Source: Caulobacterales bacterium (lineage in GTDB: Bacteria; Pseudomonadota; Alphaproteobacteria; Caulobacterales; Caulobacteraceae). Taken from it: a DNA stretch of 44,363 bases. Shown in pieces: positions 11,837-27,550 of the stretch. Under the pieces are notes generated by a model. It was not told where the DNA came from. It worked only from the letters and a program-made list of their open reading frames with translations, and made no database searches. The number at the start of each line of letters is the position of its first letter. The first letter of the stretch is position 1. The DNA is taken from assembly GCA_947474395.1 (NCBI GenBank), contig CANJID010000032.1, forward strand, positions 1 to 44,363, given 5' to 3'. Position numbers and translations under genes: made by a program.

Positions 11837-13887
11837 GCGACGCCCAGCTCGAATTCCTCCGCGGACTGCACGAGGATGCCGCGGATGCGCCTGAAGACGG
11901 TGGCGGCGCTGCGGAAGCATTCACCCGCCAGGTGCTGGAGCGCCTTGCGGATGCCGGCTACGTCGAGAACCCGATACCGCTATGGGCTCAGGGCAACTTC
12001 GGGCCAGCCCGCTTCCGGATCAGCGGCTACGCGATGGACGAGGAGCAGGAGCGGCTGATCCTCTTCACGACGCTCTATGGTGGAGAGCCGGGCCTGCGGA
12101 CACTGGGACTCGATGAGGTCAGGACCGCCGTCGAACGGGCGGTCCGGCTGTTCCTCGAGTGCGCCCGCGGACGCGCAGATCGTATCGAGCCGGCCGACAG
12201 CGAAGCTGCCGATCTCGCCCGCACCCTTGGAGAAATCCATCACCGGATCAGTTTCCTTCGGGTGATCGTGCTGTCCGACTACCAGATGCAGCAGCGCCGG
12301 ATCGACGCCGCCGAACTTGAGGGCACGAGGGTCTCGGCCGACCTCCTAGGTCTTGAGCGGCTGCAGCGAATCCTGGGTGACGGCCTGACCCGAGAGGATA
12401 TCGTGGTCGACCTCGTGGCCATCTCTGGTGAACCGCTGGCAGCCCTTTCGGTTGAGGCGGAAGGAGCCGGGTATGAGACTTGGCTTGCGGCGATCCCGGG
12501 TGAAGTGCTCGCGCGGGCCTATGAGGACTACGGCGGCCGCCTTCTGGAACTGAACGTTCGCGCCTTCCTGGGGGTCCGCGGCCGGAAATCCGTCAACGCG
12601 GGACTACTGGCTACACTCGAGTCCCGGCCTGCCGACTTCCTGGCCTTCAACAACGGCATCGTTGCAACGGTCGACGACATCGAGTGGGAAGACCGGAGCG
12701 GGGTCGCAATGATCCGTAAGCTGACGGGTCTGCAGATCGTCAACGGCGGTCAGACCACTGCATCGATACACCGGGCCTCACGCGCCCTTCACATTGACCT
12801 CGGCCCGGTTCGGGTGCCGGCCAAGATCATCCGGGTACCGCGTGATGACCTCTCCCGAATGGTCACCGACATCTCCCGCTCCGCCAACATCCAGAACACG
12901 GTGCAGCCAGCCGACTTCTCGGCCAACGATCCGTTCCATGTCCGCGTCGAGGAGCTGGCCAACAACGAGTGGCGGCCCGACGGTGTCACGCGGTGGTTCT
13001 ATGAACGCGCGCGCGGCAGCTATGGAGCGCTCGAAGCGAAGGCCGGTCTAAAGGCCGCCGACCGGAAACGGATCGCGTGGGAGACCCCCAAGGAACTCCG
13101 GTTCTCGAAGACCGACTTGGCGAAATACCTGAACGCCTGGGAAGGCTTCCCCCACCAAGTCAGCGGCGGCGCTCAGAAGAACTTCCAGCTGTTCATGCAA
13201 CGGCTGAAGGACAATCGTCGCGATCCGCCTGACGAAGCCTGGTACCACCGGTTCATCGCGCTCGCGCTCCTCTTCCGGAGCACCCAGAAGATCGTGCGCG
13301 AGGAGAAATTCAGCGCCTATCAGGCCAACATCGTCGCCTACACCGTTGCGGGACTGTCCTGGATCACCGCCGGCCGCATCGACTTCGAGCTGATCTGGCG
13401 CAATCAGTCGATAAGTCCCGAACTCGTGACCCTGATCCGGACCTGGTCCCACGAGATTGATAAGTTGCTGCGCGAGACCGCCGGCACAAAAATGCCAACG
13501 GAGTGGGCCAAGCGCACGGAAGCGTGGGAACAGATACGCGAGCGGCTTCCCGCGCTATCCGATCCCCTGCCGCCGGAGCTTGCCGGCACGACTGGCAGCG
13601 ATACCGCACGCCCGACAGCCTCGGCGGATGGGCTGAACGCCGCCGACCTTCAGATGATCAACCAGTGCCGCGCCATCAGCGCCGAAGGATACATCGAGAT
13701 CATCGGGTGGGGCCGTCGCAGCGGCTTGCAGAAGTGGCAGACGGACATCCTTACCACCGTCATGGGCTACGCCGCATCGGACTGGGAGCGGAGCCCCTCA
13801 GCTAAACAGGCGCGTTGGGTCATGGATGCGAAGGTACGGTTCAGCGAGGCGGCCGGGTCGCCAGAAATGGCGGACGCCGATGACTAA
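11833..13887 (+). CDS. AIPR family (abortive infection phage resistance) protein
   Basis: A 684-aa AIPR-family protein. The family signature is visible from about residue 235 to 330: ELNVRAFLGVRGRKSVNAGL, ADFLAFNNGIVATVD and LQIVNGGQTTASIHRA, followed by a long helical region. AIPR proteins were first found in abortive phage resistance and recur in defence islands beside methylases, Vsr and helicases; their biochemical activity is not settled. The start is a TTG at 11833 overlapping the DrmB stop (TTGA). It is supported by GAGGAG 7 nt upstream and by the lack of another start for 60 codons. It closes the operon, and downstream sequence carries no further plus-strand gene. In this position it may be the toxic effector of the system, which is inference. 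Confidence 0.85.
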   Translation: MSDAQLEFLRGLHEDAADAPEDGGGAAEAFTRQVLERLADAGYVENPIPLWAQGNFGPARFRISGYAMDEEQERLILFTTLYGGEPGLRTLGLDEVRTAVERAVRLFLECARGRADRIEPADSEAADLARTLGEIHHRISFLRVIVLSDYQMQQRRIDAAELEGTRVSADLLGLERLQRILGDGLTREDIVVDLVAISGEPLAALSVEAEGAGYETWLAAIPGEVLARAYEDYGGRLLELNVRAFLGVRGRKSVNAGLLATLESRPADFLAFNNGIVATVDDIEWEDRSGVAMIRKLTGLQIVNGGQTTASIHRASRALHIDLGPVRVPAKIIRVPRDDLSRMVTDISRSANIQNTVQPADFSANDPFHVRVEELANNEWRPDGVTRWFYERARGSYGALEAKAGLKAADRKRIAWETPKELRFSKTDLAKYLNAWEGFPHQVSGGAQKNFQLFMQRLKDNRRDPPDEAWYHRFIALALLFRSTQKIVREEKFSAYQANIVAYTVAGLSWITAGRIDFELIWRNQSISPELVTLIRTWSHEIDKLLRETAGTKMPTEWAKRTEAWEQIRERLPALSDPLPPELAGTTGSDTARPTASADGLNAADLQMINQCRAISAEGYIEIIGWGRRSGLQKWQTDILTTVMGYAASDWERSPSAKQARWVMDAKVRFSEAAGSPEMADADD

Positions 13888-14652: not shown

Positions 14653-16914
14653 TCACCCGAAGTCATCATCGCCACCTGCGGATGACCGTTTGGCGGGGAG
14701 GCGAAGCTGAATTCCGGACCAGAACCGACCAGTTTTGTTGCGTTCAGACCGAAAGCCGGAACGCTTCAAACGTTCACCAAAGGCGTTCTGATGGCCGGGT
14801 TGTTCACCTGCCCTTGCGGTGTAATCGCGCCAGCTTCCGTACAGCTTGGTAGCGAAAGCCCACTTGTGTGAGTTAGCGGGCTCGGCGTCACACTCGTCGT
14901 CAAGCCACTGCTGGAAGAGGTCCTGATCGTCGAAATAGGTGGTGGTTGCCTGCGTCACTACCGACGGCCTAACCAACCCATTAGCCTGCCAGTCTAAACC
15001 ACCGTCGATCATCCAGCGCAGTATGCCCGGTCCCTCCAATCGAAGTTGCCGTTCCAAATCTGGGTCAGGCTTAGCGGGCTTATTATTGAACGGGACGATG
15101 TTAATCCGGCGGCGAAGGGCTTCGTCCGCCGTCGTGATGCGGGGCTGGTGGTTTCCGACGGCAAACAGCTTGAAGGTCGGGTCAAACTCGAAGAAATCCT
15201 GCCGCATAAACCGTGCACGGATACGGTCGCCGCCAGTTAGGGCCTTGATCCGCGCCTCTGCCCATGCGCGGCCCGCTTCTGTCTCCGAAGCCGTTACAAA
15301 TCTAGCACCCTTGAGCATGGCCAGTTCGGTAGGGTGCCGGTCAAATTGCGATGCGGCCAAGGTCTCCATCGGTATTGTGATGGCGTAGTCGCCCATTATC
15401 CAAGAGACGACATTCACTAGAACTGACTTACCATTCCCGCCGCCGCCGATACCATACAGCAGGGCGTGTTCGGAAACGTCGCCGGTCAGGCTGTAGCCAA
15501 GGAACTGCTGAACGAAGCGGATGAGTTCCACGTCGCCGCCGAAGGTTTCGGATAGGAACAAATGCCACCGCGGGCAATCTGCGGTATCTGCGGGGGCGAC
15601 GCCGAAGGACTTGGTCAGGCGGTGGTCGGGATCAGGAGCCATAAGCTGTCCCGTATGCAGATCGATGGCGCATCCCGCTGCCCCCGCAAGGTAATGGTCT
15701 GTGTCCCAGTACTCCGCCGTCACCGCTAGCCTTGGGTCACTGCGGGCGGCCCGTTCTATGCCGGTGACGGTTGCCATCTTGCCCAGCACCTTTTGAGCAC
15801 CTACGGGCGCTGCTGCTGAGGCCTCCCGACAAAGCTCCCGACACGCATAAACGACTTGGCCAGTCTCATCCTTGCGCCAAATACCGCCGTCGTACCGGAA
15901 CCATGCGGCGGCGTGGTGGTCGTATCGCACAAGGTCAGCATTCCGGTCGGCCAAGACGCTTGCGAGCCCATCCTCCGTGGTCGGCAACAGCCCAGCCGCA
16001 TCATCATTCGCCGCGACCGCGCCGCTCGCAGGCCGTGGCTTTTGCAGGCCAGCGCTTAGGCCGGATTCGATAGTTTTAAGGACAGCAGTCTTATCGTCTT
16101 CGGCGGCCAGTCCGCAGGCAAGAGCCGCCCCTAGCAGGCCCTGCCGGGCGGCGGCATCCGTTAGCTGTTTGATGGCAATCAGTTGCGCCATCCGGAAGGC
16201 TGCGCGATTCAGGGTGTCGTTGCGTGTACCCGGCACCGCTGCCGCCAGCCGTGAGCACTCGTCCCTCAGGGCCCTGAGCCCATAGGCCGTTGAACCGTCA
16301 CCGGCTCGGTCCTTGGGGATTTCGTTGAAGGGCTTGGGAACAAGCCCACAAGCCCCCAGCGCCGCCGCCAGAACGTCCGGTGGCGCATCTACGACAGGAA
16401 ATAGGCCGGGCGGGTTTTCCCACGTGTAGCGACGGCCATCTGCCAGCCGTGAGCCGCGCATAATCAGGTAACCGCCTTCGCCGCGAACGTCGATGTCGGG
16501 GCCGATTTTGCCCGCCGAGTTTCGGACCAGCGTGTCGGGGCTGTATTTGTAGAGGATGTGATAACCGCCGGTAGCGGTGCGCGTAATGGCCGTCTTGCCA
16601 ATCTCATCGAGTTTCCAGCCGCGCTCTCCAAGTGTCTGCAAACCTTGTTTGCCGTCGGCTACGTCGACGTCTACCGCCCAGATGCCAGACGGTTCGCCGG
16701 TCGGCATGCCCACCATCGCGTTAGGGTGCTGAGCCCACCAGCGGTCAATCTGGGCCGGGTCGCGGGATGCGTCCTTGAATCCGTGTGTTGTTAGCGGTCG
16801 TTTGTCAGGTCCGCATGGGAATACGGGGCCAAGATCGCGGGCGATCTGGTGGGCCGCTTCGCGGGGAGTTGGCTCATCGTCCCTTGCTAGCGACGCGTGA
16901 AAATTAGGGTCCAT
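14653..16914 (-). CDS. Phage/plasmid primase-helicase (prim-pol plus D5/P4-like ATPase)
   Basis: A 753-aa replication protein. The N-terminus is a bifunctional primase/polymerase domain: GIWAVDVDVADG with metal ligands near D82 and D84, GGYHILYKY with the following His, and IDVRGEGGYLIMRGS. The centre and C-terminus form a D5/P4-type helicase with Walker A GGGGNGKSVLVN (about 488-499), a DUF5906-like ATPase region and a C-terminal winged-helix-like end (ALLYGIG to LKRSGFRSERN). The start at 16914 is chosen because AAGGAG lies 6 nt upstream; a longer reading frame has no such site. It would prime and unwind DNA for autonomous replication of the satellite element. There are no capsid, terminase or lysis genes nearby. 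Confidence 0.85.
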   Translation of the reverse strand: MDPNFHASLARDDEPTPREAAHQIARDLGPVFPCGPDKRPLTTHGFKDASRDPAQIDRWWAQHPNAMVGMPTGEPSGIWAVDVDVADGKQGLQTLGERGWKLDEIGKTAITRTATGGYHILYKYSPDTLVRNSAGKIGPDIDVRGEGGYLIMRGSRLADGRRYTWENPPGLFPVVDAPPDVLAAALGACGLVPKPFNEIPKDRAGDGSTAYGLRALRDECSRLAAAVPGTRNDTLNRAAFRMAQLIAIKQLTDAAARQGLLGAALACGLAAEDDKTAVLKTIESGLSAGLQKPRPASGAVAANDDAAGLLPTTEDGLASVLADRNADLVRYDHHAAAWFRYDGGIWRKDETGQVVYACRELCREASAAAPVGAQKVLGKMATVTGIERAARSDPRLAVTAEYWDTDHYLAGAAGCAIDLHTGQLMAPDPDHRLTKSFGVAPADTADCPRWHLFLSETFGGDVELIRFVQQFLGYSLTGDVSEHALLYGIGGGGNGKSVLVNVVSWIMGDYAITIPMETLAASQFDRHPTELAMLKGARFVTASETEAGRAWAEARIKALTGGDRIRARFMRQDFFEFDPTFKLFAVGNHQPRITTADEALRRRINIVPFNNKPAKPDPDLERQLRLEGPGILRWMIDGGLDWQANGLVRPSVVTQATTTYFDDQDLFQQWLDDECDAEPANSHKWAFATKLYGSWRDYTARAGEQPGHQNAFGERLKRSGFRSERNKTGRFWSGIQLRLPAKRSSAGGDDDFG

Positions 16915-17031
16915 TGTGGTCTCCTTGGTGGGGAGAACTGCCCTTGCGAAAAACGACAAAAATGCTTAAAGTTCAATTGCTTGCACGCCATCTAACCGCT
17001 GCATCGGGCCGTCCCTGCGGGGGCGGCTCGA

Positions 17032-17241
17032 TTATTTTGCGGGTTGCGCCTGATTGGCTGCGTGCATGCCTTCGTTGGCGCACCGCGTCAGGAAAGACTG
17101 CAGTTCTTCGGTGAAGATCAGGCGGCGGCCGCCGACCTTGAAGGCCTTAAGCCGACCGGTCTGGATTTCTTCGTAGATCGTGCTGCGCGACAGGCCAGTC
17201 GCGACCACCGCTTCGGGGATTTGATAGGAAAGTTTACTCAT
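17032..17241 (-). CDS. Small helix-turn-helix excisionase/AlpA-like protein
   Basis: A 69-aa DNA-binding protein with a MerR/excisionase-type helix-turn-helix. IPEAVVATGLSRSTIYEEIQTGRLKAFKVGGRRLIF covers about residues 8-43, including the wing residues KVGGRR that follow the recognition helix. Such proteins in P4-like satellites act as excision directionality factors or as activators of the integrase promoter. It sits between the integrase side and the primase gene on the same strand, 117 bp upstream of the primase start. A role in switching between integration and replication is likely but inferred from position. Confidence 0.75.
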   Translation of the reverse strand: MSKLSYQIPEAVVATGLSRSTIYEEIQTGRLKAFKVGGRRLIFTEELQSFLTRCANEGMHAANQAQPAK

Positions 17242-17351
17242 CGGGATTTCTCCAGTCCGCTGCGTTGGTGCAGCTTTCCGTGAATATCCGCGTGGACACT
17301 CTGGGTATCTGACAGCAGGCGATGCGATTGCGCGACCTGATGTCCGAGACT

Positions 17352-18209
17352 TTATGTGGGAATTGGGAACAGCCCCCTGCGGCCAGATTTTATCATTGTA
17401 ACATACTGTCTTATTGCTCTTTCGGAGCCCCCGCGTTCTGTACCGTGTGAAACCTCAAGGGCTAATTCGCATATCTGAGCGAAAAGCGTGGATTGATCGT
17501 AACTTACATGATGTAAATAATCGTGCCGGTGTTCTTCGAATATTACGAATCCGCCTTTGGAAGAGATCAATATATTCTTATCGTTCGACTTATCTAAAAT
17601 GAAACCTTGTTTTAGGGCTGAATCGATGGCTCGAACCCAGTGTGGAGTGGTTACAAAGCGCGCCTGTTGCTCCTTCGCGAATTCGGCCGTGATCATCTCA
17701 GCCTTCTCCCGCGCTGTACTGAGCAGCGCCCGCAGCGCTTTTAAATCCACGCCCTGTTCTAATCCGGTGGCGTTGGGATCGGGTTCGTCAAAAGAACTTT
17801 GTGACGCCTCCATCTGCATAGCCACCATCAGTCGGGGAGAGTCGTGAATCGGGGAGTTGTGATAATCGAAAATTGCCTTTTGAGTGCTCGCCGACAGTTC
17901 CGTGTCATCGTCTGGACCTAGGTCTTTAGGAAAGGACTCTTCAATCGTTTCTAGGTTGTCTTGGGCATCAATCAGGCGACCCAATTGGCGTTCCGCGGCC
18001 CTCAGCGCTGTCACCAAGGCCTTGGCTTCGGAAACTTTGTCCGATTTTTTAGGTGGCCTACGCCCCTGCATCGGCAAGCCGACCGCCTGTTCTAGTTCGA
18101 TAAGTTGTTTATCGCTGACCCCTAGGCTTCGTTGCAGATAATCAATTCTTGCTTTCGTCCAGCCCGGCCCTGCGTTGTCGACAAGTTCGCCCTTAGACTT
18201 TTGCGGCAT
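17352..18209 (-). CDS. Unknown cargo protein of the integrase element
   Basis: A 285-aa protein I do not recognise. Its 5' end overlaps the 3' end of the integrase gene by about 17 bp, so it is probably cotranscribed with it. The N-terminal 75 residues (KSKGELVDN, LQRSLGVSDKQLIELEQAVGL, RRPPKKSDK) look helical and basic. The middle is acidic and helical. The C-terminal third (TTPHWVRAIDSALKQGFIL, ISSKGGFVIFEEHRHDYLHH) mixes strands and histidines. The coding sequence is noticeably more AT-rich at its 3' end than its neighbours, consistent with transferred cargo. Genes in this place in phage satellites are often accessory or defence functions, but there is no motif to support one here. A start at 18233 is possible. 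Confidence 0.6.
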   Translation of the reverse strand: MPQKSKGELVDNAGPGWTKARIDYLQRSLGVSDKQLIELEQAVGLPMQGRRPPKKSDKVSEAKALVTALRAAERQLGRLIDAQDNLETIEESFPKDLGPDDDTELSASTQKAIFDYHNSPIHDSPRLMVAMQMEASQSSFDEPDPNATGLEQGVDLKALRALLSTAREKAEMITAEFAKEQQARFVTTPHWVRAIDSALKQGFILDKSNDKNILISSKGGFVIFEEHRHDYLHHVSYDQSTLFAQICELALEVSHGTERGGSERAIRQYVTMIKSGRRGLFPIPT

Positions 18210-19434
18210 CTTCTGCCCCCATTTTCGGCTCAATAAACGCCGCCCACGCTTCCATCAACGGACGCCGCTTGGCTAGGCTATCCCCCCGGCGATATGCTCG
18301 TTCAGTGGCATCCCCGACCAAGTGTGCCAATGCCATCTCGGCTAAATTGCTCGGGAACGGCGACACTTCCCCGGCCCAATCTCGGAAGCTCGACCTGAAC
18401 CCGTGGATAGTTCCGTCAACTTCCATGCGCCTCAGCAGCATTGCGAGTGCCATTGATGACAGCGGTCCGCCCTGCTGGCCTGGAAAAACGGGGAGCTTCG
18501 CAATTGCGACATTCCCCGCGTCTGAGCCGTGAAGCGTTCTGACAAATTTCAGGATTTCAACGGCTCGTGGAACCAACGGCACGCGATGTTGTTCTGCTGC
18601 CTTCATGCGCTCAGCGGGCAAGGTCCAAACCGCTGCCGTCATGTCGATCTCTTGCCAAGTGGCCCCCAGAACCTCTCCAGAGCGCGCAGCGGTCAGGATC
18701 AGGAACTCCAGTGCCAAGGCGGCGATAGCTTCGCGCTGATGCAACGCGGCAACGAACTTGGCGACCTCATCAAACGGCAGTGCCTTATGGTGGCCGCGCT
18801 GCAGCTTCTGGCGCTGAGGCAGGAGGTGTTTCAGATGGCCGTGCCAGCGCGCCGGATTTTCACCTTGTCTGTGTCCGGCGGCCTTAGCGGCGTCTAGCAC
18901 GCGCTCGATACGCCCCCTTAGTCGGGCGGCCGTCTCTGGCCGCTTTAGCCAAATGCGATCAAGAACCGCCTTAACATCGGCGGTGGTAATCTGGTCAACT
19001 GGCAGACTGCGCAAGGGTTCAGCGTAGACGTTTAGGGTCATCCTCCATTGATTTCGGTGCTTTTCATTGCGCCACTGGGGGGAAAGGGATGTGACGTATT
19101 CATCTGCTATCTTGCCAAATGTCTGCAGCGGCACCGGTTCTGCTGGCACGGGCTCCACCGGCACGGCGTTCCGAACCGAGATGGGGTCGCCCCCAGCCTT
19201 TATGACTTCGCGAGCCTTATCGGCCTTGCCGCGTGCGTCTGCGAGCGACACGCCACCCTTGGCGGCTGAGCCCAGCCCCATCTCGCGTCGCCTGCCGTCC
19301 CGCTTCCACAGAAAGAGCCACCGCGAACGCCCTTGCTCGTCGCGGTCGAGATAAAGGCCACCGCCGTCAGAGTGACGGCCCACGCCGAGCGCTTCCACCT
19401 GCTTGGCTTTCAATTTGTGCAGTGTCCGCGCCAT
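18193..19434 (-). CDS. int: P4-type tyrosine integrase
   Basis: A 413-aa tyrosine recombinase. The N-terminal DUF4102-type arm-binding domain is recognised by GGLYLDRDEQGRSRWLFLW and REMGLG; a core-binding domain follows at about residues 103-210. The catalytic domain shows the full set: Arg251 (TAARSGEVLG), His344 and Arg347 (HGFR), His371 (LAHLVG) and nucleophile Tyr381 (ERAYRRGD). It should cut and join attachment sites to integrate the element 14168-19434. The ATG at 19434 has GGGAGG upstream; an in-frame start at 19467 is less likely. No tRNA gene is visible beside it, so the attachment site is not identified. It is the right-hand gene of the element and reads inward. Confidence 0.92.
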   Translation of the reverse strand: MARTLHKLKAKQVEALGVGRHSDGGGLYLDRDEQGRSRWLFLWKRDGRRREMGLGSAAKGGVSLADARGKADKAREVIKAGGDPISVRNAVPVEPVPAEPVPLQTFGKIADEYVTSLSPQWRNEKHRNQWRMTLNVYAEPLRSLPVDQITTADVKAVLDRIWLKRPETAARLRGRIERVLDAAKAAGHRQGENPARWHGHLKHLLPQRQKLQRGHHKALPFDEVAKFVAALHQREAIAALALEFLILTAARSGEVLGATWQEIDMTAAVWTLPAERMKAAEQHRVPLVPRAVEILKFVRTLHGSDAGNVAIAKLPVFPGQQGGPLSSMALAMLLRRMEVDGTIHGFRSSFRDWAGEVSPFPSNLAEMALAHLVGDATERAYRRGDSLAKRRPLMEAWAAFIEPKMGAEDAAKV

Positions 19435-19447
19435 CTTGCCCCCTCCC

Positions 19448-19469
19448 GGCCCCACCTTTGGCCCCACCT
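19448..19469. repeat. Tandem 10-bp repeat at the integrase start
   Basis: GGCCCCACCT occurs twice, at 19448-19457 and 19460-19469, directly upstream of the integrase ATG. It may be an arm-type recombinase or regulator binding site, or simply repetitive coding drift. Confidence 0.3.
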
Positions 19470-19579
19470 AATGAACCGGATATTAGTGGACGCGTGCGGA
19501 CAGTGGAAGACATTCTGTCTATTATTTCCTGTAATTTATGGGGTATTTAGAGTTTGTAGGTATCCGCTCGGACTGTAGT

Positions 19580-19602
19580 TTGGCGGACACCCCGTCCGCC
19601 AA
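19580..19602. terminator. Perfect hairpin in the gap between integrase and recombinase
   Basis: Arms TTGGCGGAC and GTCCGCCAA pair perfectly over a 5-nt loop. No T-run follows on either strand. It lies in the 562-bp gene-free stretch 19435-19996. It could be a factor-assisted terminator for the recombinase transcript coming from the right, or a protein-binding site near the integrase promoter. Confidence 0.35.
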
Positions 19603-19886
19603 CCACCCCCGTAACTGCGCTCCAGAATCCCCGAAATCAGCCAATTAGCGGAGATTCCGAAGAAATTCGGGCCCGAACCGCCGTGCGCGCGACTGGTTTC
19701 TCGCCCCAAATCCCTCAAATGCGTGCAATTCGCCGCCCTGTCTCCAGCGCAACGCGCCGCAGTCGAGTTTCCCTGTTATCGCGAAATTATTGCGTCGCCG
19801 GCTGATCCAAGTCGGCCCGCCGATCGCCAATACCCGAGGCGCGCCAGGGATTTAGATGCGCGCAGATCCGCGGCGCCCCGTTTCAA

Positions 19887-19986
19887 AACAGGGAATTCAG
19901 CGGCGGAAGAACAGGGAATTTTTCGTCCCGGAACAGGGACCGTTTCAATCCGAAACAGCGATCAATTTGAGACGTAACAGGGGACC
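19887..19986. repeat. Iteron-like array, five AACAG-headed units at 22-bp period
   Basis: AACAG starts at 19887, 19910, 19932, 19954 and 19976, a spacing of 23, 22, 22 and 22 bp. Four units continue as AACAGGGA or AACAGGGG; the fourth is AACAGCGA. A period of two helical turns puts every unit on the same face of the DNA, as expected for cooperative protein binding. The array ends 11 bp from the recombinase stop codon. It may be a recombinase or attachment region; otherwise the stretch 19603-19886 holds nothing I can identify. Confidence 0.55.
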
Positions 19987-19996
19987 GAGGTCCCCG

Positions 19997-21619
19997 TCAG
20001 GCGATCTCAGCGAAACCGAACGCCACCCTCTGAGCTGGCCAGGTCGTCGGTATTTGGGCGTTGATCAAGCGCTGAAGGGTGAGGTCGCGCGGCTGCCGAC
20101 CCTGCAGAATTTGTTTCTGGATATCGGGGGCAAGAAAGGCGAGGCGGCAGAGCTTTCGTTCATAGGCGCTGGTCGGTGAACTCGCCTCGTGTCCATCTTC
20201 CAGCCTCCCGTCCGGCCGCCAACCCATTTCCGCGACGATCCGGTGTGCTTGTTGAAGCCCCTTGATGAGAGTGGGATCGCGCCGTGCACGCAGCGCCGCG
20301 GCAGATCCACCGGGGCCTTCGATCAGGGTTCGGCCGCCCCTCAGTTTGCAGCGGATCGGGAGCGTCGCCCAGGCGAGGCCTGACTCGCGATCGTCGATTT
20401 CCGTGTCGGCGAGCGCCCGGCGCGGGGTCTTGGCCCGAATGAACGCGATCCTGATTGCGTCCGACTCAAGGTGAACCCGCTGCACGTATCCGATCAGATC
20501 ACCTAGCCGCGCGCCGTCGGCGCCGATCCGGCGATTGAGTTCCTGTTCAAGTATCTCCTCGACCTCGGCCGCTGCGACCCGGCGGATGGCGTTCGGGTCC
20601 GGACGCACCGCCCTGCCCTGCATCAGTGGCGCCGAGACGTAGTAGCGGTAAATCTTGTCCTCACCCTTGTGGGTGAAGCTCGGGGACATCGGATCGCCGT
20701 CGGCGTCGAACAGCCTACCCTTCAGCGGCATGGTCGCCGACCGGAGCGGCCGCTCGCGATGGACGCGGGCGCTTCGGACTAGCCCCGCCTGCACCGCGTC
20801 GAACAGGGCGCGATCGACGATCGGTGGGTGATTTCCGGGATGGGCGGTTCCCTTATGGACGATCTCGCCGAGATAAATACGGTTTCGCAGGAGGTGGTAG
20901 AGCGCCCCCCGTGAGAACCGGCAGCCGCCCCGGACAGAACCACGCCGGCTCTCGACCCGCTTCGAACGGACCCCTTCCGCATCCAGCACGGCGACGAGAC
21001 GATGCACCGACCCAAGCTCGAGATAGGTCCGGAATATCCGCTCAACGACGTCGGCCTCGACGCGATTGACGACGAGGGCGCGCGTCAGAGGGTCGGTCGG
21101 GACGTCGTAGCCGAGGGGCAGGTTCCCGCCCATCCACATCCCGCGCGCCTTGGAGGCGGCGATCTTGTCCCGGATGCGCTCGCCGGTGACCTCCCGCTCG
21201 AACTGGGCGAACGAGAGCAGGACGTTCAGGGTCAGACGTCCCATCGACGTCGTGGTGTTGAACGCCTGAGTGACCGAGACGAACGAGGCGCCCGCCGCGT
21301 CCAACCGCTCAACGATCTTGGCGAAGTCGGCAAGGGAACGGGTCAGACGGTCGACCTTGTAGACCACCACGATGTCGATGCGCCCGGCGTCCACCTCTTC
21401 CAGGAGCTTGGCGAGACCCGGCCGGTTTATGTTTCCGCCTGAGAAACCGCCATCGTCATAGATCGTCGGAAGTATGCGCCAGCCTTCGCCGACCTGGCTC
21501 TTCACGTAAGCCTCGCAGGCTTCGCGCTGGGCATGCAGGCTGTTGAACGCCTGATCGAGCCCCTCCTCCGAGCTCTTGCGCGTGTAGATCGCGCACCGGA
21601 CCACTTTGCGCTCGCTCAT
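19997..21619 (-). CDS. Large serine recombinase
   Basis: A 540-aa site-specific recombinase of the resolvase/invertase superfamily. The catalytic domain starts CAIYTRKSSEEG with nucleophile Ser16, followed by Arg91 and Arg94 in YKVDRLTRS and by SFAQFEREVTGERIRDKI (about 175-192). The Recombinase domain (LGYDVPTDPLTRALVVN, RNRIYLGEIVHKGTAHPG) spans about 200-330, and a C-terminal helical extension follows. It would cut DNA by a 2-bp staggered serine mechanism to move its host element. Its start overlaps the DUF2924 gene by 4 bp (ATGA), a pairing seen often in alphaproteobacteria. The canonical Cys-rich zinc ribbon is not evident, so this belongs to the shorter alphaproteobacterial type. Confidence 0.88.
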   Translation of the reverse strand: MSERKVVRCAIYTRKSSEEGLDQAFNSLHAQREACEAYVKSQVGEGWRILPTIYDDGGFSGGNINRPGLAKLLEEVDAGRIDIVVVYKVDRLTRSLADFAKIVERLDAAGASFVSVTQAFNTTTSMGRLTLNVLLSFAQFEREVTGERIRDKIAASKARGMWMGGNLPLGYDVPTDPLTRALVVNRVEADVVERIFRTYLELGSVHRLVAVLDAEGVRSKRVESRRGSVRGGCRFSRGALYHLLRNRIYLGEIVHKGTAHPGNHPPIVDRALFDAVQAGLVRSARVHRERPLRSATMPLKGRLFDADGDPMSPSFTHKGEDKIYRYYVSAPLMQGRAVRPDPNAIRRVAAAEVEEILEQELNRRIGADGARLGDLIGYVQRVHLESDAIRIAFIRAKTPRRALADTEIDDRESGLAWATLPIRCKLRGGRTLIEGPGGSAAALRARRDPTLIKGLQQAHRIVAEMGWRPDGRLEDGHEASSPTSAYERKLCRLAFLAPDIQKQILQGRQPRDLTLQRLINAQIPTTWPAQRVAFGFAEIA

Positions 21620-22017
21620 GCCGCAACCTTCTGGGATCGGAGACCAAAGAAGCGGGGACCGTTCCAGCGCACGCCGGTGATCTTGCGCGCGATCTCGGAC
21701 AGACTTCCGTAGCGGTCGCCCCGGTGCAGGAACCCGCCGTCCGGCAGGACGACCACCTCATACGGAGCGCCCTGCCACTCACGCACCAGGCGCGCGCCCG
21801 GAACGGGCTCGAGGCCGCTGCGGGCTCCGAGGGGCCGCCGAAGCGCGAGGCGCGCATCACGGTCCAGCCCGCCTTCGACCTCGATTTGCATTCGCCAAGC
21901 CAGCATCAGGCTTAGAAGCTCAGGCGAGCGCAGGACCGGCGGCGCACCATAGCGCTCGCGCCAGATCGCGCGGAGCGCCTCAAGGCCCAGGCCATCAAGA
22001 TTGGCAGGCGCGGCCAT
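21616..22017 (-). CDS. DUF2924 protein, recombinase partner
   Basis: A 133-aa protein of the DUF2924 type, with LEALRAIWRERYGAPPVLRSPELL near residues 11-34. It also has the C-terminal half GARLVREWQGAPYEVVVLPDGGFLHRGDRYGSLSEIARKITGVRWNGPRFFGL (about 78-128), the usual signature of the family. Its function is not established. It is nearly always found just upstream of this kind of serine recombinase, and here the two genes overlap by 4 bp, so it probably assists recombination or DNA binding. Its own start overlaps the stop of a tiny upstream reading frame by 1 bp (TGATG), adding a third coupled frame to the operon. Confidence 0.8.
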   Translation of the reverse strand: MAAPANLDGLGLEALRAIWRERYGAPPVLRSPELLSLMLAWRMQIEVEGGLDRDARLALRRPLGARSGLEPVPGARLVREWQGAPYEVVVLPDGGFLHRGDRYGSLSEIARKITGVRWNGPRFFGLRSQKVAA

Positions 22018-22112
22018 CAGGCGTCAGCCGTTGCGGCCGCTTCACCTGTACCCGCGCGCAAAGGTCCGCGCGCTGGCGCCAGCTTGGGTGAGGTTCGATC
22101 TTTGCGGGTCAT
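22017..22112 (-). CDS. Possible 31-aa leader gene of the recombinase operon
   Basis: A short frame starting MTRKDRTSPKLAPARGPL and ending GEAAATADA. GAGGG lies 7 nt before its ATG, the best ribosome-binding site in this operon, and its stop is joined to the DUF2924 start as TGATG. It may be a genuine small protein, a translational coupling leader, or the remnant of the extra small gene often found at this place. It has no recognisable domain. Confidence 0.4.
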   Translation of the reverse strand: MTRKDRTSPKLAPARGPLRAGTGEAAATADA

Positions 22113-22127
22113 GCCCAATCCCTCAGA

Positions 22128-22139
22128 TCAGGGCCCTGA
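22128..22139. promoter_or_regulatory. 12-bp palindrome upstream of the recombinase operon
   Basis: TCAGGGCCCTGA is a perfect palindrome 16 bp upstream of the small leader frame. A second inverted repeat (GCCCGG and CCGGGC, 22165-22181) follows. Either could be an operator; nothing else is recognisable in 22113-22360. Confidence 0.3.
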
Positions 22140-22368
22140 AAAATCTGCCCCTGCACTGAGGAAAGCCCGGACCGGCCGGGCGCTCTGAACCTGGACCTCG
22201 CTCCAACCGCAGCGTTCGTCCAGTCCAAAATCAAAAAAATCGGCGTCCATCGCCTAAGCCGATGCCCTATCGCGGCCCAAGGGCGGGGCTGCGTTCCTAC
22301 CGACGCCCGAAATCACTCGTCGAAGCCGAGAGCGGCCAGAGGAATTTTTCGGATTGCCGCACAACCTG

Positions 22369-22397
22369 TTGCTTGTATTATGTTTTCTTGATATTTT
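22369..22397 (+). promoter_or_regulatory. Candidate promoter of the ParB-methyltransferase gene
   Basis: TTGCTT (22369-22374), a 17-bp spacer and TATTTT (22392-22397) lie in a conspicuously AT-rich patch. The predicted transcription start is about 18 nt before the ATG at 22423. This supports that ATG over the frame's earlier one at 22354. Confidence 0.4.
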
Positions 22398-22422
22398 TGA
22401 CCGACTCACGCAGCCTCCATGT

Positions 22423-23748
22423 ATGGAACGAGCCGCCCCCCACATCATAGAGATGCGTCCGACGCGGTCGTTGCGGCCGTCTTCGGCCAACGCGCGCCGT
22501 CATCCGCGCAAACAGCTGAAACAGATCGCCCAGAGCATTGAACGGTTTGGGTTCACCAACCCCGTGCTGATTGACGACGACGATCGGATTCTGGCCGGCC
22601 ATGGCCGGGTCGAGGCGGCCAAGCTGCTCGGTATGAAGACGGTCCCCACCCTCAAGCTTTCGCACCTCAGCGAGGTCGAGCGGCGCGCCTATATGCTCGC
22701 CGACAACAAGCTCGCCCTGAACGCCGATTGGGACCAAGAGGTCCTGGCCAATGAGCTGCAGGGGCTCATCGATGTCGATTTCGACGTCCCTCTGACGGGC
22801 TTTTCCCTGGCTGAGATTGACTTCAGCCTGGACTCGGCCAGGGAGGCTGATCCGAAACGGCCGTCTGTAGGCGCCGATCAAATCCCTGAAATGCGCAAGG
22901 AAGCGGTCAGCCGAAAGGGCGACCTCTGGCTCCTCGGCCCCCACCGACTTCTTTGCGGCGACTCGCGGGACCCCGGCTGCTTCGAGCGCCTTCTCGACGG
23001 GGAGCGGGCCGATCTCATCTTCACCGATCCGCCCTACAACGTCCGCATCGACCGCTATGCGACAGGCAAGGGCCAGTATCGCCACCGCGAGTTCTCCATG
23101 GGCGTTGGCGAGATGTCGTCGGTGGCCTTCACCCAGTTCCTGACTCAGAGCCTTTCCAACCACGCCGCCTGCGCCCGTGACGGCGCGATCGCCTTTGTCG
23201 CCATGGACTGGCGGCACATGGGCGAGCTCCTGGCGGCCGGCCGGGCGGCGTTCAGTGAGTTCAAGAACCTCTGCGTCTGGAACAAGACCAACGCCGGGAT
23301 GGGGAGCTTCTATCGGTCGAAGCACGAGCTGATGTTCGTGTTCAAGGTCGGGACCGCCCCCCACACCAACAACTTTGGCCTCGGCGCCGACGGGCGTCAC
23401 CGCGCCAATGTCTGGGACTACGCCGGCGTCTCCGGCGGCGGCGCGGCCCGGGACGAAGCCTTGGCCATGCACCCAACGGTCAAGCCGGTCGCTCTGGTCG
23501 CCGACGCAATCCGGGACTGTTCGAAACGCGGAGACATCATCCTCGATGGCTTCGGCGGATCGGGCGCCACCTTGATCGCCGCTGAGCTTTGCGGTCGGGT
23601 CGCCAGGGTGATCGAGATCGACCCGCTCTACGTCGACACCATCGTGCGCCGGTTCGAACAGTTCACGGGCAAGGCGGCGACCCTCGCCAAGACCGGCGAG
23701 ACGTTCGAGGCCGTCGAGGACGATCGGCAGTGGGATGACATTGCGTGA
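22423..23748 (+). CDS. ParB/sulfiredoxin-like nuclease domain fused to DNA adenine/N4-cytosine methyltransferase
   Basis: A 441-aa two-domain protein. The N-terminal ParB/Srx-like domain has NPVLIDDDDRILAGHGRVEAAKLLG (about 46-70) and ADNKLALNADWD. The C-terminal methyltransferase has catalytic DPPYNV (about 203-208), a variable target-recognition region, and the SAM-binding motif DGFGGSGATLIAAE (about 374-387). With the catalytic motif first, it is a beta-class amino-methyltransferase. There is no matching restriction gene, so it is an orphan, as in many alphaproteobacterial phages. The start is uncertain (22423 or 22453). The stop overlaps the DUF5681 start as GTGA. Its modified base and recognition site cannot be predicted. 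Confidence 0.85.
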   Translation: MERAAPHIIEMRPTRSLRPSSANARRHPRKQLKQIAQSIERFGFTNPVLIDDDDRILAGHGRVEAAKLLGMKTVPTLKLSHLSEVERRAYMLADNKLALNADWDQEVLANELQGLIDVDFDVPLTGFSLAEIDFSLDSAREADPKRPSVGADQIPEMRKEAVSRKGDLWLLGPHRLLCGDSRDPGCFERLLDGERADLIFTDPPYNVRIDRYATGKGQYRHREFSMGVGEMSSVAFTQFLTQSLSNHAACARDGAIAFVAMDWRHMGELLAAGRAAFSEFKNLCVWNKTNAGMGSFYRSKHELMFVFKVGTAPHTNNFGLGADGRHRANVWDYAGVSGGGAARDEALAMHPTVKPVALVADAIRDCSKRGDIILDGFGGSGATLIAAELCGRVARVIEIDPLYVDTIVRRFEQFTGKAATLAKTGETFEAVEDDRQWDDIA

Positions 23749-24605
23749 GCCAGCCCGATGAAGACGGCGACGAGAACGAGCGTGTCGGCTATGGGCGGCC
23801 GCCCAAAAAGAACCAGTTCCAGAAGGGGATATCGGGTAATCCGCGGGGCCGGCCTCGCACGCGCATGAAACCGCGGCCGGTCCTGACTCTGGGGCGCATC
23901 GGCCCTGAGATCATCCTCAACGAATCCACACGCACGGTGCAGGTACGCGAGAATGGCAAGGTCGAGGAGATGCCGCTCCTCCAGGCGATCATACGCGGAG
24001 TGCACATCAGCGCCCTCAAAGGCAACCTGCGGGCCGCTACCGTCGCGGTTCAATTAGCCAAGGTCGCCGAGGAGACCATGGATCGGCAATGGTCGGAAAA
24101 GATCGACGAAGTCATCGAGAACCAGCACCGGTGGGACCAGTCGCTCCGGCTCGCCCAGGCTGCGGGCCAATCCCTTCCAGAGCCGGTCCCGCATCCCTAC
24201 GATTTCGGCCTCGACCACAGTACCATGAGCATCGTCTGCAATGGGCCGGGCAGTGACGCCGAGAAAGCGCACTGGGATAAGATGGTCGAGCGGCGCAACG
24301 ATTTCGTGGGGGAGATCGAGGACATCCTCGCTTACCCGGGCTCGGCGGGCCTGGGCCCCCTAGAGAACGCTCTGTGTTCGATGGTGGCGCAAATCGATCG
24401 GATCGACGGTCTATTCCCGGACGAGCGCACCCGCCGGCAACCAGATTTCAACCTCGCACGCTGGCGCGCCGAGGGCGGCATGCGGACGAAGTCTTTGAAC
24501 GAAATCAAAAGGCCTTGGGATCCGAAATACTGGGCTCAGGTCAAAGCGCGTCGGTCACCCAAAGGTGAAGGTGAACGGCGCGCCATCCAGCGTGCCGTCG
24601 CCTAA
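23745..24605 (+). CDS. DUF5681 domain protein
   Basis: A 286-aa protein starting with GTG overlapped by the stop of the methyltransferase gene. Residues 17-37 read GRPPKKNQFQKGISGNPRGR, the DUF5681 signature, which is rich in Gly, Arg and Pro. A helical region (MPLLQAIIRGVHISALKGNLRAA, about 75-97) follows. These proteins are common next to ParB-type methyltransferases and phage terminase genes in alphaproteobacterial prophages. No enzymatic role is established. The 3' end overlaps the convergent lipoprotein gene by 51 bp, which is probably where the mobile module meets the resident chromosome. Confidence 0.75.
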   Translation: MSQPDEDGDENERVGYGRPPKKNQFQKGISGNPRGRPRTRMKPRPVLTLGRIGPEIILNESTRTVQVRENGKVEEMPLLQAIIRGVHISALKGNLRAATVAVQLAKVAEETMDRQWSEKIDEVIENQHRWDQSLRLAQAAGQSLPEPVPHPYDFGLDHSTMSIVCNGPGSDAEKAHWDKMVERRNDFVGEIEDILAYPGSAGLGPLENALCSMVAQIDRIDGLFPDERTRRQPDFNLARWRAEGGMRTKSLNEIKRPWDPKYWAQVKARRSPKGEGERRAIQRAVA

Positions 24606-24902
24606 CCCTCGCTGGCCGGTCGAAACAAAAGTGAACTTGCCCGTCCTGCCATCGGTGCAGATGAGCGTGCCCGATCCTTGCCGGCCCGTGATGTAGACGA
24701 ACCGCCCAGTGCACCGTGCGCCAGTGGCCAACGTCAAATCGAGCTCACCGGCGCCATCCATGTGGCCGGTCGCCGTACCGACGAGGGCTTCGTTAGTGCT
24801 CTGAAGCTGGCCCGTGACCGGCAGGGTCAGAGTGCAGGCCGAAAGGGCGACGGCGACCGCGGCGAGCGCCCAGGTGCGGAGGGACATTAGGTTTTTTCCC
24901 AT
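24555..24902 (-). CDS. Small predicted lipoprotein
   Basis: A 115-aa protein starting MGKNLMSLRTWALAAVAVALSAC, with a lipobox LSAC ending at Cys23, so it is likely lipid-anchored in the periplasm or outer membrane. The mature part is a compact, Gly/Thr-rich beta-type sequence (ATGHMDGAGELDLTLATG, ITGRQGSGTLICTDGRTG, GQRGLGDGTLDGAPFTFTFG) that looks like a complete small beta domain. A second in-frame ATG at 24887 is an alternative start. It ends a minus-strand gene series that starts with the TonB-dependent receptor, 23 bp after the DUF6152 gene. Its 3' end overlaps the plus-strand DUF5681 gene. No function assigned. Confidence 0.65.
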   Translation of the reverse strand: MGKNLMSLRTWALAAVAVALSACTLTLPVTGQLQSTNEALVGTATGHMDGAGELDLTLATGARCTGRFVYITGRQGSGTLICTDGRTGKFTFVSTGQRGLGDGTLDGAPFTFTFG

Positions 24903-24925
24903 TTGGAGCGGCGCGCCGTACCGCC

Positions 24926-25348
24926 CTACCTCGGCGCCTCGACGACGGAGGCCGGAGCGCGGCCGGGCAGCTGACGGATGGTCTTGCCGTCGGGCATGGT
25001 CGCGCTGACCATGAAGCCGCCCTTGCGGCCGTCCTTGAGGGGGTAGTAGCCCACCTTGACCTTGTCGCCGGGCTTGAGGCTGTGCTTGTCCCAGCCCGAG
25101 CGGCCCAGGTAGTTGGGGCTCATCCCCTCCAGCCCGTAGCGGTCCGTGCCGCCCTTGCCGTTTGGCACCTGGAACCAGGTCCAGACATGAGGGTTCGTCC
25201 ACTCGAACTGCTCGACCGTGCCCGTCAGGGTCGACTCCTCGCCCCACTTGAACATGGCGGTCGAGTGGTGAGCTGCGGCCGAGCCCGCGGCGGCGAGCAC
25301 CGCGGCAGCGGCGGCGAAGGCGATCGTCCTCAAGGCGTTCGTTTTCAT
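24926..25348 (-). CDS. DUF6152 exported protein, copy B
   Basis: A 140-aa protein with a Sec signal peptide (about residues 1-26, ending AAGSAAA) followed by HHSTAMFKWGEESTLTGTVEQFEWTNPHVWTWF, the DUF6152 hallmark. Further conserved pieces are EGMSPNYLGRSGWDKHSLKPGDKVKVGYYPLKDGRKGG. It is a periplasmic beta-rich domain whose N-terminal His-His could bind metal after signal removal; that is inference. Its ATG is one base after the stop of the 285-aa gene, forming a tight pair. A paralogue (26217-26648) is paired the same way with a paralogue of the 285-aa protein. Confidence 0.82.
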   Translation of the reverse strand: MKTNALRTIAFAAAAAVLAAAGSAAAHHSTAMFKWGEESTLTGTVEQFEWTNPHVWTWFQVPNGKGGTDRYGLEGMSPNYLGRSGWDKHSLKPGDKVKVGYYPLKDGRKGGFMVSATMPDGKTIRQLPGRAPASVVEAPR

Positions 25349-26216: not shown

Positions 26217-26648
26217 CTAGCGGGCCTCTGCGGGCGTAGCCGGACGGGCGGCCACGCCGATCCCCGACTGGGTGACCGTGCGGCCGTCGGCAAGCACCAT
26301 GCTTGAGAACATCCCCCCGGGAGAGCCATCCTTCAAGGGTGAGATGATCAGGGTGATCTTGTCGCCCGGCTGGACCGTCCGTTTGCTCCAACCGCGCCGC
26401 CCCAGGAAGTTGGGGCTCTGCCCCTCCGCCGCCCAGACCACCGGCTTGCCGTCCTTGTCGGGGACCGCGACCCAGATGAACGAATGAGGGTTCGTCCAAT
26501 CAAATTTAGTCACTGTTCCGACCAGGGTGGTCTTCTTGGTCAGATCGAACATGGCGAAGGAGTGGTGCGCCAATGCCGAGCCGGCGCTGACGAGCAACGC
26601 CACGATAGCGATCCCTGCCAGCCTGGTCCTTGTGGTCCGAAGTCTCAT
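26217..26648 (-). CDS. DUF6152 exported protein, copy A
   Basis: A 143-aa DUF6152 protein with a signal peptide (about 1-27, ending GSALA) and mature start HHSFAMFDLTKKTTLVGTVTKFDWTNPHSFIWV. It also has EGQSPNFLGRRGWSKRTVQPGDKITLIISPLKDGSPGG. The ATG at 26648 is preceded by GGAG 8 nt upstream; a GTG nine bases earlier is possible. It lies between the two copies of the larger exported protein and is the paralogue of 24926-25348, with the same HHS mature N-terminus. Cotranscription with the receptor gene upstream is likely because all spacings are short. Confidence 0.82.
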   Translation of the reverse strand: MRLRTTRTRLAGIAIVALLVSAGSALAHHSFAMFDLTKKTTLVGTVTKFDWTNPHSFIWVAVPDKDGKPVVWAAEGQSPNFLGRRGWSKRTVQPGDKITLIISPLKDGSPGGMFSSMVLADGRTVTQSGIGVAARPATPAEAR

Positions 26649-26686
26649 CGCTTTCACTCCAATGCTTTGCAGCGCGGACGGACGGC

Positions 26687-27550
26687 CTAGTTCTTGAGGG
26701 AAATGCCGGCCTTGCCGTCGGTGACGGAGTTCCGGTTGTTCTGCTCGCAGATGTATTCGGACGTGGTCCAGTCGCGGTGGCGCAGATAGGTCCGGGTGGT
26801 CACGAAGGGCGCGGTGAGCGCTTCCGGATCGGTGACCGTGGTCTGGATCTCCAGCACGTCCGGGGCCGCCAAGCGCATTCGCTCGACCACATGCATCTTG
26901 TCGCTGTGGCGGACGCCGGCGGCGAGGGTGGTGTCGGGGCTGAAGCCCACCGAATCGACCACCAGCACCCCGTTGTCCCACTTGCCGGTCGAATAGCCGT
27001 GCCAGGTGAGGTCCGGGTCGGCCGGGGCCGTGCGCCCGTCAGTGTAGATGTGGCGCACCTGGGTGTAGGCCTCGATGACGATGGTCACCTTGCCCGGGGT
27101 CAGCATGAACTCGATCGGATAGGGCTGGGTCATGATGCCGGGCGTGCCGGGGGGCACGCAATTGGCGGTCTCGTCGTCCTGGATGTCTCCCCTGGCCTGA
27201 GCCGCGCGGTAAGCGGCGAGCTGGGCCGCATAGGGCGCCGTCAGTTGCGGCTGGGGGGCCGGGGGGCGGCGCGGCGCCGCTCCGGCGGCGGCGGGGGGCG
27301 CCCCCGGAGCAGCGCCGCCCGCCGGCGTCCCGGCGGGTCGGGCGGCCAGGGTTCCGGGAGGGCCCGGACTGACCGTGCCCACCTCCCACACCCCGTTGAA
27401 ATCCGGAAGTTGGGCCAGGGCCGCCCAGTCGGCGGTCTTGTAGGGGCCCATGACGCGTCCGATCTGCTGCGCCGTCGCCGGCGCCGCCGATGCGCATACG
27501 AGCAGGGCGGCGGCCAGGCGCGCCCTGGATCGGAAAACCACTAAACTCAT
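26687..27550 (-). CDS. Exported protein paired with DUF6152, copy A
   Basis: A 287-aa protein with a signal peptide (about 1-28, ending ATAQ). GGAG lies 6 nt before the ATG at 27550. It shares with the 25350-26207 protein the blocks LPDFNGVWEVG, QPYPIEFMLTPGKVTIVIEAYTQVRHIYTDGR, GVRHSDKMHVVERMRLA and HRDWTTSEYICEQNN. A Pro/Ala/Gly-rich linker (about residues 65-95) is specific to this copy. The WEGDTL motif of the sister copy is here KWDNGVLVVDSVGF. The function is unknown; the gene directly follows the TonB-dependent receptor, separated by a strong hairpin, so a role in periplasmic handling of the receptor's ligand is a reasonable guess. Confidence 0.75.
   Translation of the reverse strand: MSLVVFRSRARLAAALLVCASAAPATAQQIGRVMGPYKTADWAALAQLPDFNGVWEVGTVSPGPPGTLAARPAGTPAGGAAPGAPPAAAGAAPRRPPAPQPQLTAPYAAQLAAYRAAQARGDIQDDETANCVPPGTPGIMTQPYPIEFMLTPGKVTIVIEAYTQVRHIYTDGRTAPADPDLTWHGYSTGKWDNGVLVVDSVGFSPDTTLAAGVRHSDKMHVVERMRLAAPDVLEIQTTVTDPEALTAPFVTTRTYLRHRDWTTSEYICEQNNRNSVTDGKAGISLKN

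Follow-up and report, generated by a model that had tools for sequence, protein, structure and literature searches.

A phased direct-repeat array in the probable attachment region of a tRNA-targeting serine-recombinase island from a Caulobacterales bacterium

In a 44,363-nucleotide stretch of DNA from a Caulobacterales bacterium (contig CANJID010000032.1, analysed over its whole length and called the window below) a serine recombinase gene is followed by five direct repeats, which, as judged by comparison with related loci, very probably belong to the attachment region of an island that this recombinase inserts at tRNA genes. The array is not the crossover site; the crossover is at the tRNA end. 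We consider the chances about even that the array is a putative binding platform on which accessory proteins form a nucleoprotein complex controlling recombination. An attachment or control region had been suggested in the initial annotation of the sequence, and this fits, since the array lies in a non-coding strip between the recombinase gene and a tRNA-Ser junction and recurs in relatives.

The array and its surroundings in the window

The features to which the text refers are the following (coordinates of the window, strand, description, basis).

18193..19467, minus strand: tyrosine integrase of a second island, lying against the same tRNA-Ser fragment (ORF, Pfam)
19579..19602, no strand: palindrome TTTGGCGGA-CACCCCG-TCCGCCAA (sequence)
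19588..19601, plus strand: 14-nt fragment of a tRNA-Ser 3' end, CACCCCGTCCGCCA (sequence)
19602..19996, no strand: terminal non-coding strip of 395 bp, from the recombinase stop to the tRNA-Ser fragment (sequence)
19767..19777, minus strand: single inverted copy of the motif, AACAGGGAAAC (sequence, alignment with relatives)
19887..19986, plus strand: five direct repeats with AACAGGGAATT-like heads, period 22-23 bp (sequence)
19997..21619, minus strand: serine recombinase, 540 aa, Resolvase PF00239 and Recombinase PF07508 (ORF, Pfam)
21616..22017, minus strand: 133-aa partner protein of the recombinase (DUF2924), predicted to be RAMA-like in its C-terminal half (Pfam, model)
22354..23748, plus strand: ParB_N-like domain (under the Pfam cut-off) and N6/N4 DNA methyltransferase (Pfam)
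23745..24605, plus strand: DUF5681 protein (Pfam), with relatives that in some islands adjoin the gene of a terminase large subunit

On the plus strand AACAG starts at 19887, 19910, 19932, 19954 and 19976, which gives five units, the first step being 23 bp and the other three 22 bp each. The 11-mers of units 1 to 5 are, in this order, AACAGGGAATT, AACAGGGAATT, AACAGGGACCG, AACAGCGATCA and AACAGGGGACC, the fourth unit having diverged from AACAGGG, and conservation is limited to the unit heads. The last 11-mer ends at 19986 and is separated by 10 bases from the recombinase stop codon (19997-19999). The array described in the initial annotation is real and its span, 19887-19997, was given rightly; the five steps and the distance of 11 bp to the stop codon have to be corrected to five units with four steps and 10 bases after the last 11-mer.

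AACAG is the sole 5-mer in the window that forms a five-copy chain at any period between 15 and 30 bp. No 5-mer did so in 100 dinucleotide shuffles of the window, and in 2000 shuffles of 19469-20000 there was no chain of even three AACAG copies. In the whole genome there are two exact copies of the 11-mer AACAGGGAATT, both of them in this array. A simple tandem repeat was rejected since Tandem Repeats Finder, run on the window, did not call the array, and an RNA feature was rejected on the results of Rfam, which at E<=1 gave for window positions 17000-25000 one weak, truncated match at the edge of the stretch only and at gathering score nothing for 14 array loci.

The recombinase (PF00239 with E 1.8e-38, PF07508 with E 5.7e-15) has the domains of a large serine integrase. 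Its start overlaps the end of the DUF2924 gene by four bases, and the N6_N4 methyltransferase gene, which accompanies the array in relatives, is divergent from these two genes. To the right of the DUF5681 gene, in a host-like region, two short ORFs of the HHSxAMF... type at 24926-25348 and 26217-26981 look similar by eye, an apparent duplication.

On the other side of the array the 395-bp strip contains the inverted copy at 19767-19777, taken as the remnant of a second cluster that reads CCCTGT..CCCTGTTAnCAGGGAA in relatives, and beside the tRNA end what would be a half-site of the recombinase. ARAGORN found no tRNA in the window; CACCCCGTCCGCCA is identical to the last 14 nt of a tRNA-Ser of which a full-length copy is present at G000:C10:70267. 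The palindrome at 19579-19602 would fit as a core site for the tyrosine-integrase island next to it, which may have displaced the remainder of the tRNA-Ser. Islands of both types, with a serine and with a tyrosine recombinase, appear stacked at one tRNA-Ser (window 19579-19602; G000:C10:70267-70292). Near the tyrosine integrase there are an AIPR (abortive infection) gene at 11833-13887 and a Prim-Pol/D5 helicase gene at 14653-16959.

Recurrence, helical phasing and the junction with tRNA

Outside the array, the double AACAGGGA motif is found in the window's genome at C21:2684, just past the end of a recombinase paralogue (C21:2723-4324) with 60% identity to the recombinase of the window. The pair AACAGGGA-N12-16-AACAGGGA is present in 33 of 385 genomes of the class, the window's own among the 33, and the reversed pattern had no match in those genomes.

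Homologous recombinase loci were collected from the window's recombinase family (28), from named genome loci (77) and from a viral collection (54), recombinases without a complete C-terminus or without 200 bp of flank being dropped; the resulting 159 loci include two pairs of duplicate flanks, L071/L207 with the array and L074/L210 without it. Counted as at least three units of the looser form CCTG[TAC][TA] no more than 260 bp past the recombinase stop, the array was present on the recombinase side of 34 loci and missing from this side of 125, and the controls (50 dinucleotide shuffles of the flanks, the reversed pattern, the inside of the recombinase gene) all gave 0. The initial annotation had named absence of the repeats from homologous loci as an observation that would speak against it; they are there, in a subset of the loci. 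A DUF2924 match was obtained at 156 of the 159.

Read from the recombinase outward, the common layout is direct units every 21-23 bp, a spacer, the CCCTGT..CCCTGTTAnCAGGGAA cluster, a conserved GAGA-containing stretch and, in many loci, the 3' end of a tRNA; the alignment excluded ten flanks in which inspection showed no motif. At some loci the motif is altered consistently within the locus: CGCTGTT in L085 and L086, CCCATAT in L081 and, lacking the usual third base, AACAGG/CCTGTT in L069-L071. A separate family of element ends abuts tRNA-Ser(gga), with GTTAG/CTAAC copies near the tRNA end (L176, L180, L181, L183, L185, L187-L190, L195, L196), and its member L188 partially matches the recombinase.

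The distances between copies are mostly about 11, 21-22, 42-43, 98-99, 109, 120 and 131 bp, in arrays on the recombinase side and in those at the far ends of islands (see below) alike, and the distances from the last unit to the cluster (n=42) are mostly near 77, 98, 109, 120 and 131 bp. In these 42 cases (20 of 155 recombinase-side flanks and 22 of 29 far-end arrays) the phasing of array to cluster amounts to R = 0.82 at a period of 11.1 bp, which was reached in 0 of 5000 uniform draws; since the arrays share ancestry, the test is not one on independent samples. With this proviso there is a strong indication that array and cluster, some 100 bp apart, share one helical phase, and the comparison of loci bears out the phasing of the copies, initially read from the period in the window alone.

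Within 520 bp a tRNA was detected at 70 of the 159 loci, in 69 of the 70 cases on the opposite strand and with its 3' end toward the recombinase. Where both array and tRNA are present (n=25, one locus counted twice), the tRNA is tRNA-Ser in 24 cases and the distance 344-451 bp, the equivalent in the window being the 395 bp to the 14-nt fragment; at the 45 loci with a tRNA and without the array the median distance between recombinase and tRNA is 243 bp. In two relatives, G488 and G493, the element ends share 130 of 135 positions as far as the tRNA and sit on different genes, tRNA-Ser(gga) and tRNA-Ser(tga), past which 86 of 300 positions agree, as in unrelated sequence; the piece from G493 is a 135-bp contig end, and its recombinase is on another contig. 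From the tRNA-facing loci and the near-identical ends on two tRNA-Ser genes this family of serine recombinases appears to insert at tRNA 3' ends. In the relatives the end abuts the 3' end of the tRNA and moves with the element; the window retains 14 nt of the tRNA.

Direct repeats of the tyrosine type at the tRNA were rejected, as in six related elements no tRNA fragment of at least 15 bp was repeated in the neighbouring 57-64 kb. From 27 tRNA-Ser flanks, 7 of which are in recombinase elements and 1 of which is a single base, 19 readable ones that are not beside a full-length recombinase were left, and none of these has two or more motif copies; L161, among the 19, retains the conserved GGAGACGGG stretch. 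According to a 2014 paper, serine integrases were not known to insert at tRNA genes (PMC4383910), and no report of serine integrases in tRNA genes was found in the accessible parts of the open-licence literature (including PMC12884075, PMC4383910 and PMC11476347). The putative element ends found here speak against the statement of 2014 for this recombinase family.

Far ends and anatomy of the islands

Some arrays are without an adjacent recombinase and look like the far ends of islands. In four genomes seven of them lie 23-48 kb from a recombinase (G154: 36 and 33 kb; G206: 23 and 25 kb; G066: 48 and 38 kb; G197: 47 kb), all in the expected inverted orientation, the pairing of array and recombinase resting on distance and orientation only. 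With recombinases at these distances in seven cases the interpretation as unrelated orphans was dropped, and a strict tie of the array to the 3' end of the recombinase gene, as first described, is not supported, the same array appearing at the opposite end in other islands. Outward from the far-end array follow the cluster, a GAGA..GTTCG..GACTGC-like arm (six of the seven; in the exception, G154#2, its GGTTCG form is missing) and a short stretch of the CCA type that resembles a tRNA 3' end. A methyltransferase gene was found beside three of the seven (both in G154, one in G206) among the pieces searched.

The scheme has its irregular cases. In 11 of the 29 array genomes searched there was no recombinase match at 1e-60, so that for some arrays a visible partner is missing; beside the two paired recombinases of G066 no tRNA was found; in G206 (C2) the tRNA is 1.3 kb away; and the arrays of G283 and G304 misfit in orientation or place. 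The tmRNA 3' end was rejected as the flank of far-end arrays, the alpha tmRNA (19 of 20 genomes) being in each case either on a different contig, which in a fragmented assembly does not prove distance, or no less than 240 kb from the arrays.

Tandem elements in G197 have the inverted arms GGTTCGCGGGAGA and TCTCCGCCGAACC around ATGGTGG. A score search for far ends of the tRNA-Ser type in 1.03 Mb upstream of recombinases gave two full matches and one of 19/20, the best score in shuffled sequence being 17. One of the matches delimits in G508 an element of 4,807 bp with TGGCGGTGC on both sides, whose ORFs encode only DUF5681, methyltransferase, DUF2924 and recombinase; the search for an empty site with its left flank matched a repeated gene and no empty site. 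A short core with inverted arms is seen in these relatives, G197 and G508, and the window shows the recombinase-side end only. For the far end of the window's element the best score was 16/20, at several unrelated places and none by DUF5681. The element looks like a remnant, with the cluster down to one copy and the tyrosine-integrase island on the tRNA side.

Islands of other make-up were also seen. In L080 and L231 a far-end pattern lies upstream of the recombinase stop codon at a distance of about 2.2 kb, which points to two-gene elements. The genes of an island at G154:C1:1490239-1528568 (L095, L140, L141, L390), which has array and methyltransferase at one end and the recombinase at the opposite one, include those for oxidoreductase, DctM transporter and LysR. 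In the islands of L073, L075, L087 and L088 a terminase large subunit gene lies beside the methyltransferase gene, and in L073, L075 and L087 also DUF5681.

Possible functions of the array and known systems

We propose that the serine recombinase inserts the mobile island at the 3' end of tRNA-Ser with the array in its attachment region, and that an element-encoded protein, for which DUF2924 is the first candidate, would occupy the copies by cooperative binding along one face of the DNA. Through looping of the spacer the bound protein would reach the cluster and the neighbouring recombinase site, and the looped complex would help to determine when the recombinase is active or whether it integrates or excises. 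What sequence comparison contributes to the platform reading is the terminal position of the array, its recurrence, its helical phase and, from one pair of relatives, an element end exactly at the tRNA 3' end. Serine integrases are not known to need an accessory array, which counts against a platform.

A structure model of DUF2924 (pLDDT 89, pTM 0.55) had for residues 70-133 as its three best VIA entries the RAMA domains of MPND and CcrM (7ydw, 7ydt, 6pbd), with Z 6.2-6.4 over 61-63 residues and 4.2 for the next row, all below the caution level of Z 8. Pfam RAMA was matched by 20 of 61 DUF2924 members at E<=1 (best 1e-4). Foldseek with the model gave E values above 0.1 and nothing under E 0.001, and the DUF2924 profile had no match at E<=1 among PDB sequences. 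From the model and the profile matches DUF2924 may resemble the RAMA DNA-binding domain. The RAMA domain of MPND is described as contacting the DNA backbone with no base specificity and as unaffected by 6mA in the assays (PMC9963953). Contacts of this kind lack base specificity, so that RAMA alone would not explain a sequence-specific array.

In 93 loci with enough flank the array goes with a methyltransferase gene within 4.5 kb (23 of 25 loci with the array, 14 of 68 without; Fisher 3e-10, uncorrected for relatedness) and with tRNA-Ser (18 of 19 and 8 of 31, respectively). On a quick tree of the recombinases the presence of the array changes at least 14 times, and a phylogeny-corrected pair test of array and methyltransferase gave about 3.5 versus 0.2, too few pairs for a verdict. 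Since the presence of the array follows the methyltransferase gene, its binder may belong to the methyltransferase module. An elaboration that we regard as doubtful is that DUF2924, as a RAMA-type protein, reads a phase-locked platform marked by the element's own methyltransferase, whose methylation would set the direction or timing of movement.

Two other roles of the array can be considered, both unlikely. Array and cluster could be the leftover of a phage ancestor, a cos- or pac-like packaging signal of a small terminase, for which the repeats and the palindromic cluster would serve as recognition and cutting sites. The order cluster, array, genes and terminase resembles the layout of lambda cos, and the methyltransferase that goes with the array adjoins, with DUF5681, a terminase large subunit gene in the four loci named above (assigned by clustering, with a family search on L073 and L075). 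However, it is the distance from the array to the tRNA end that is narrow (344-451 bp), not that to the methyltransferase or terminase gene; in island G154#1 the 10 of 25 ORFs of at least 110 aa that were scanned belong to methyltransferase, DUF5681, transposase, metabolic, transport or regulatory families and include no packaging gene, and there is no terminase among the window proteins searched by the array. The same steadier distance to the attachment end speaks against the array being an operator, bound by a repressor or activator of the methyltransferase operon or the recombinase operon, a reading to which the phased copies and the far-end arrays L091 and L096, about 400 bp from the start of the methyltransferase ORF, would be well suited. 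Arrays of the window type follow the recombinase operon on its downstream side and, at loci where a methyltransferase gene was found, are 2.3-4.4 kb from that gene and hence not close to a shared promoter.

A row of direct repeats of about 22 bp is a classic layout of replication iterons, and iteron is the term used in the initial annotation. That they serve the replication of an excised circular form is very improbable: the nine window proteins around the array, examined as ORFs and by Pfam, include no replication initiator, the Prim-Pol/D5 gene belongs to the other island, and the four ORFs of the 4.8-kb element of G508 are without an initiator. The word is not supported in this sense. It is very unlikely, too, that the repeats are arm-type sites of the neighbouring tyrosine integrase (18193-19467). 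This gene is 420 bp from the array, and the arms of tyrosine integrases often are direct repeats; in array-bearing relatives, however, recombinase, array and intact tRNA form a single strip of less than 460 bp, in which a further gene as large as this would have no room, and the six elements compared showed no repeat of at least 15 bp between the tRNA end and the neighbouring DNA.

On the platform reading, targeting of a tRNA end together with a large phased array beside the site suggests a branch of serine integrases under accessory control. Serine integrases are valued for working alone at short sites; if the methylation proposal were true as well, there would be a methylation-gated recombinase that uses an accessory array, in contrast to the known serine integrases, which are self-sufficient. 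The elements described, including the 4.8-kb element with four genes, are a ready set for testing accessory control.

The recombinase has a homologue in Wolbachia phage WO (98% of the length, 33% identity); the sr1WO member WORiC is reported to insert in a magnesium chelatase gene (PMC9203015). To RAMA proteins (the C-terminus of CcrM, MPND) DUF2924 is tentatively linked by the fold match of residues 70-133 and weak sequence matches; it differs by an additional helical part at the N-terminus and by its place next to a recombinase. The islands resemble those of tyrosine integrases that target tRNA in the insertion at the tRNA 3' end and in the repeats beside the core, but have a serine recombinase and, instead of a long tRNA fragment, a shared core of about 6-11 bp, which would explain why finders based on tRNA fragments possibly miss them. 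With the islands and prophages of large serine integrases (TP901-1 and phiC31 were among the PDB matches) they have in common the Resolvase and Recombinase domains and, in the relatives, a short core with inverted arms, whereas the tRNA 3' end as target, the DUF2924 partner and, in part of the family, the phased array set them apart.
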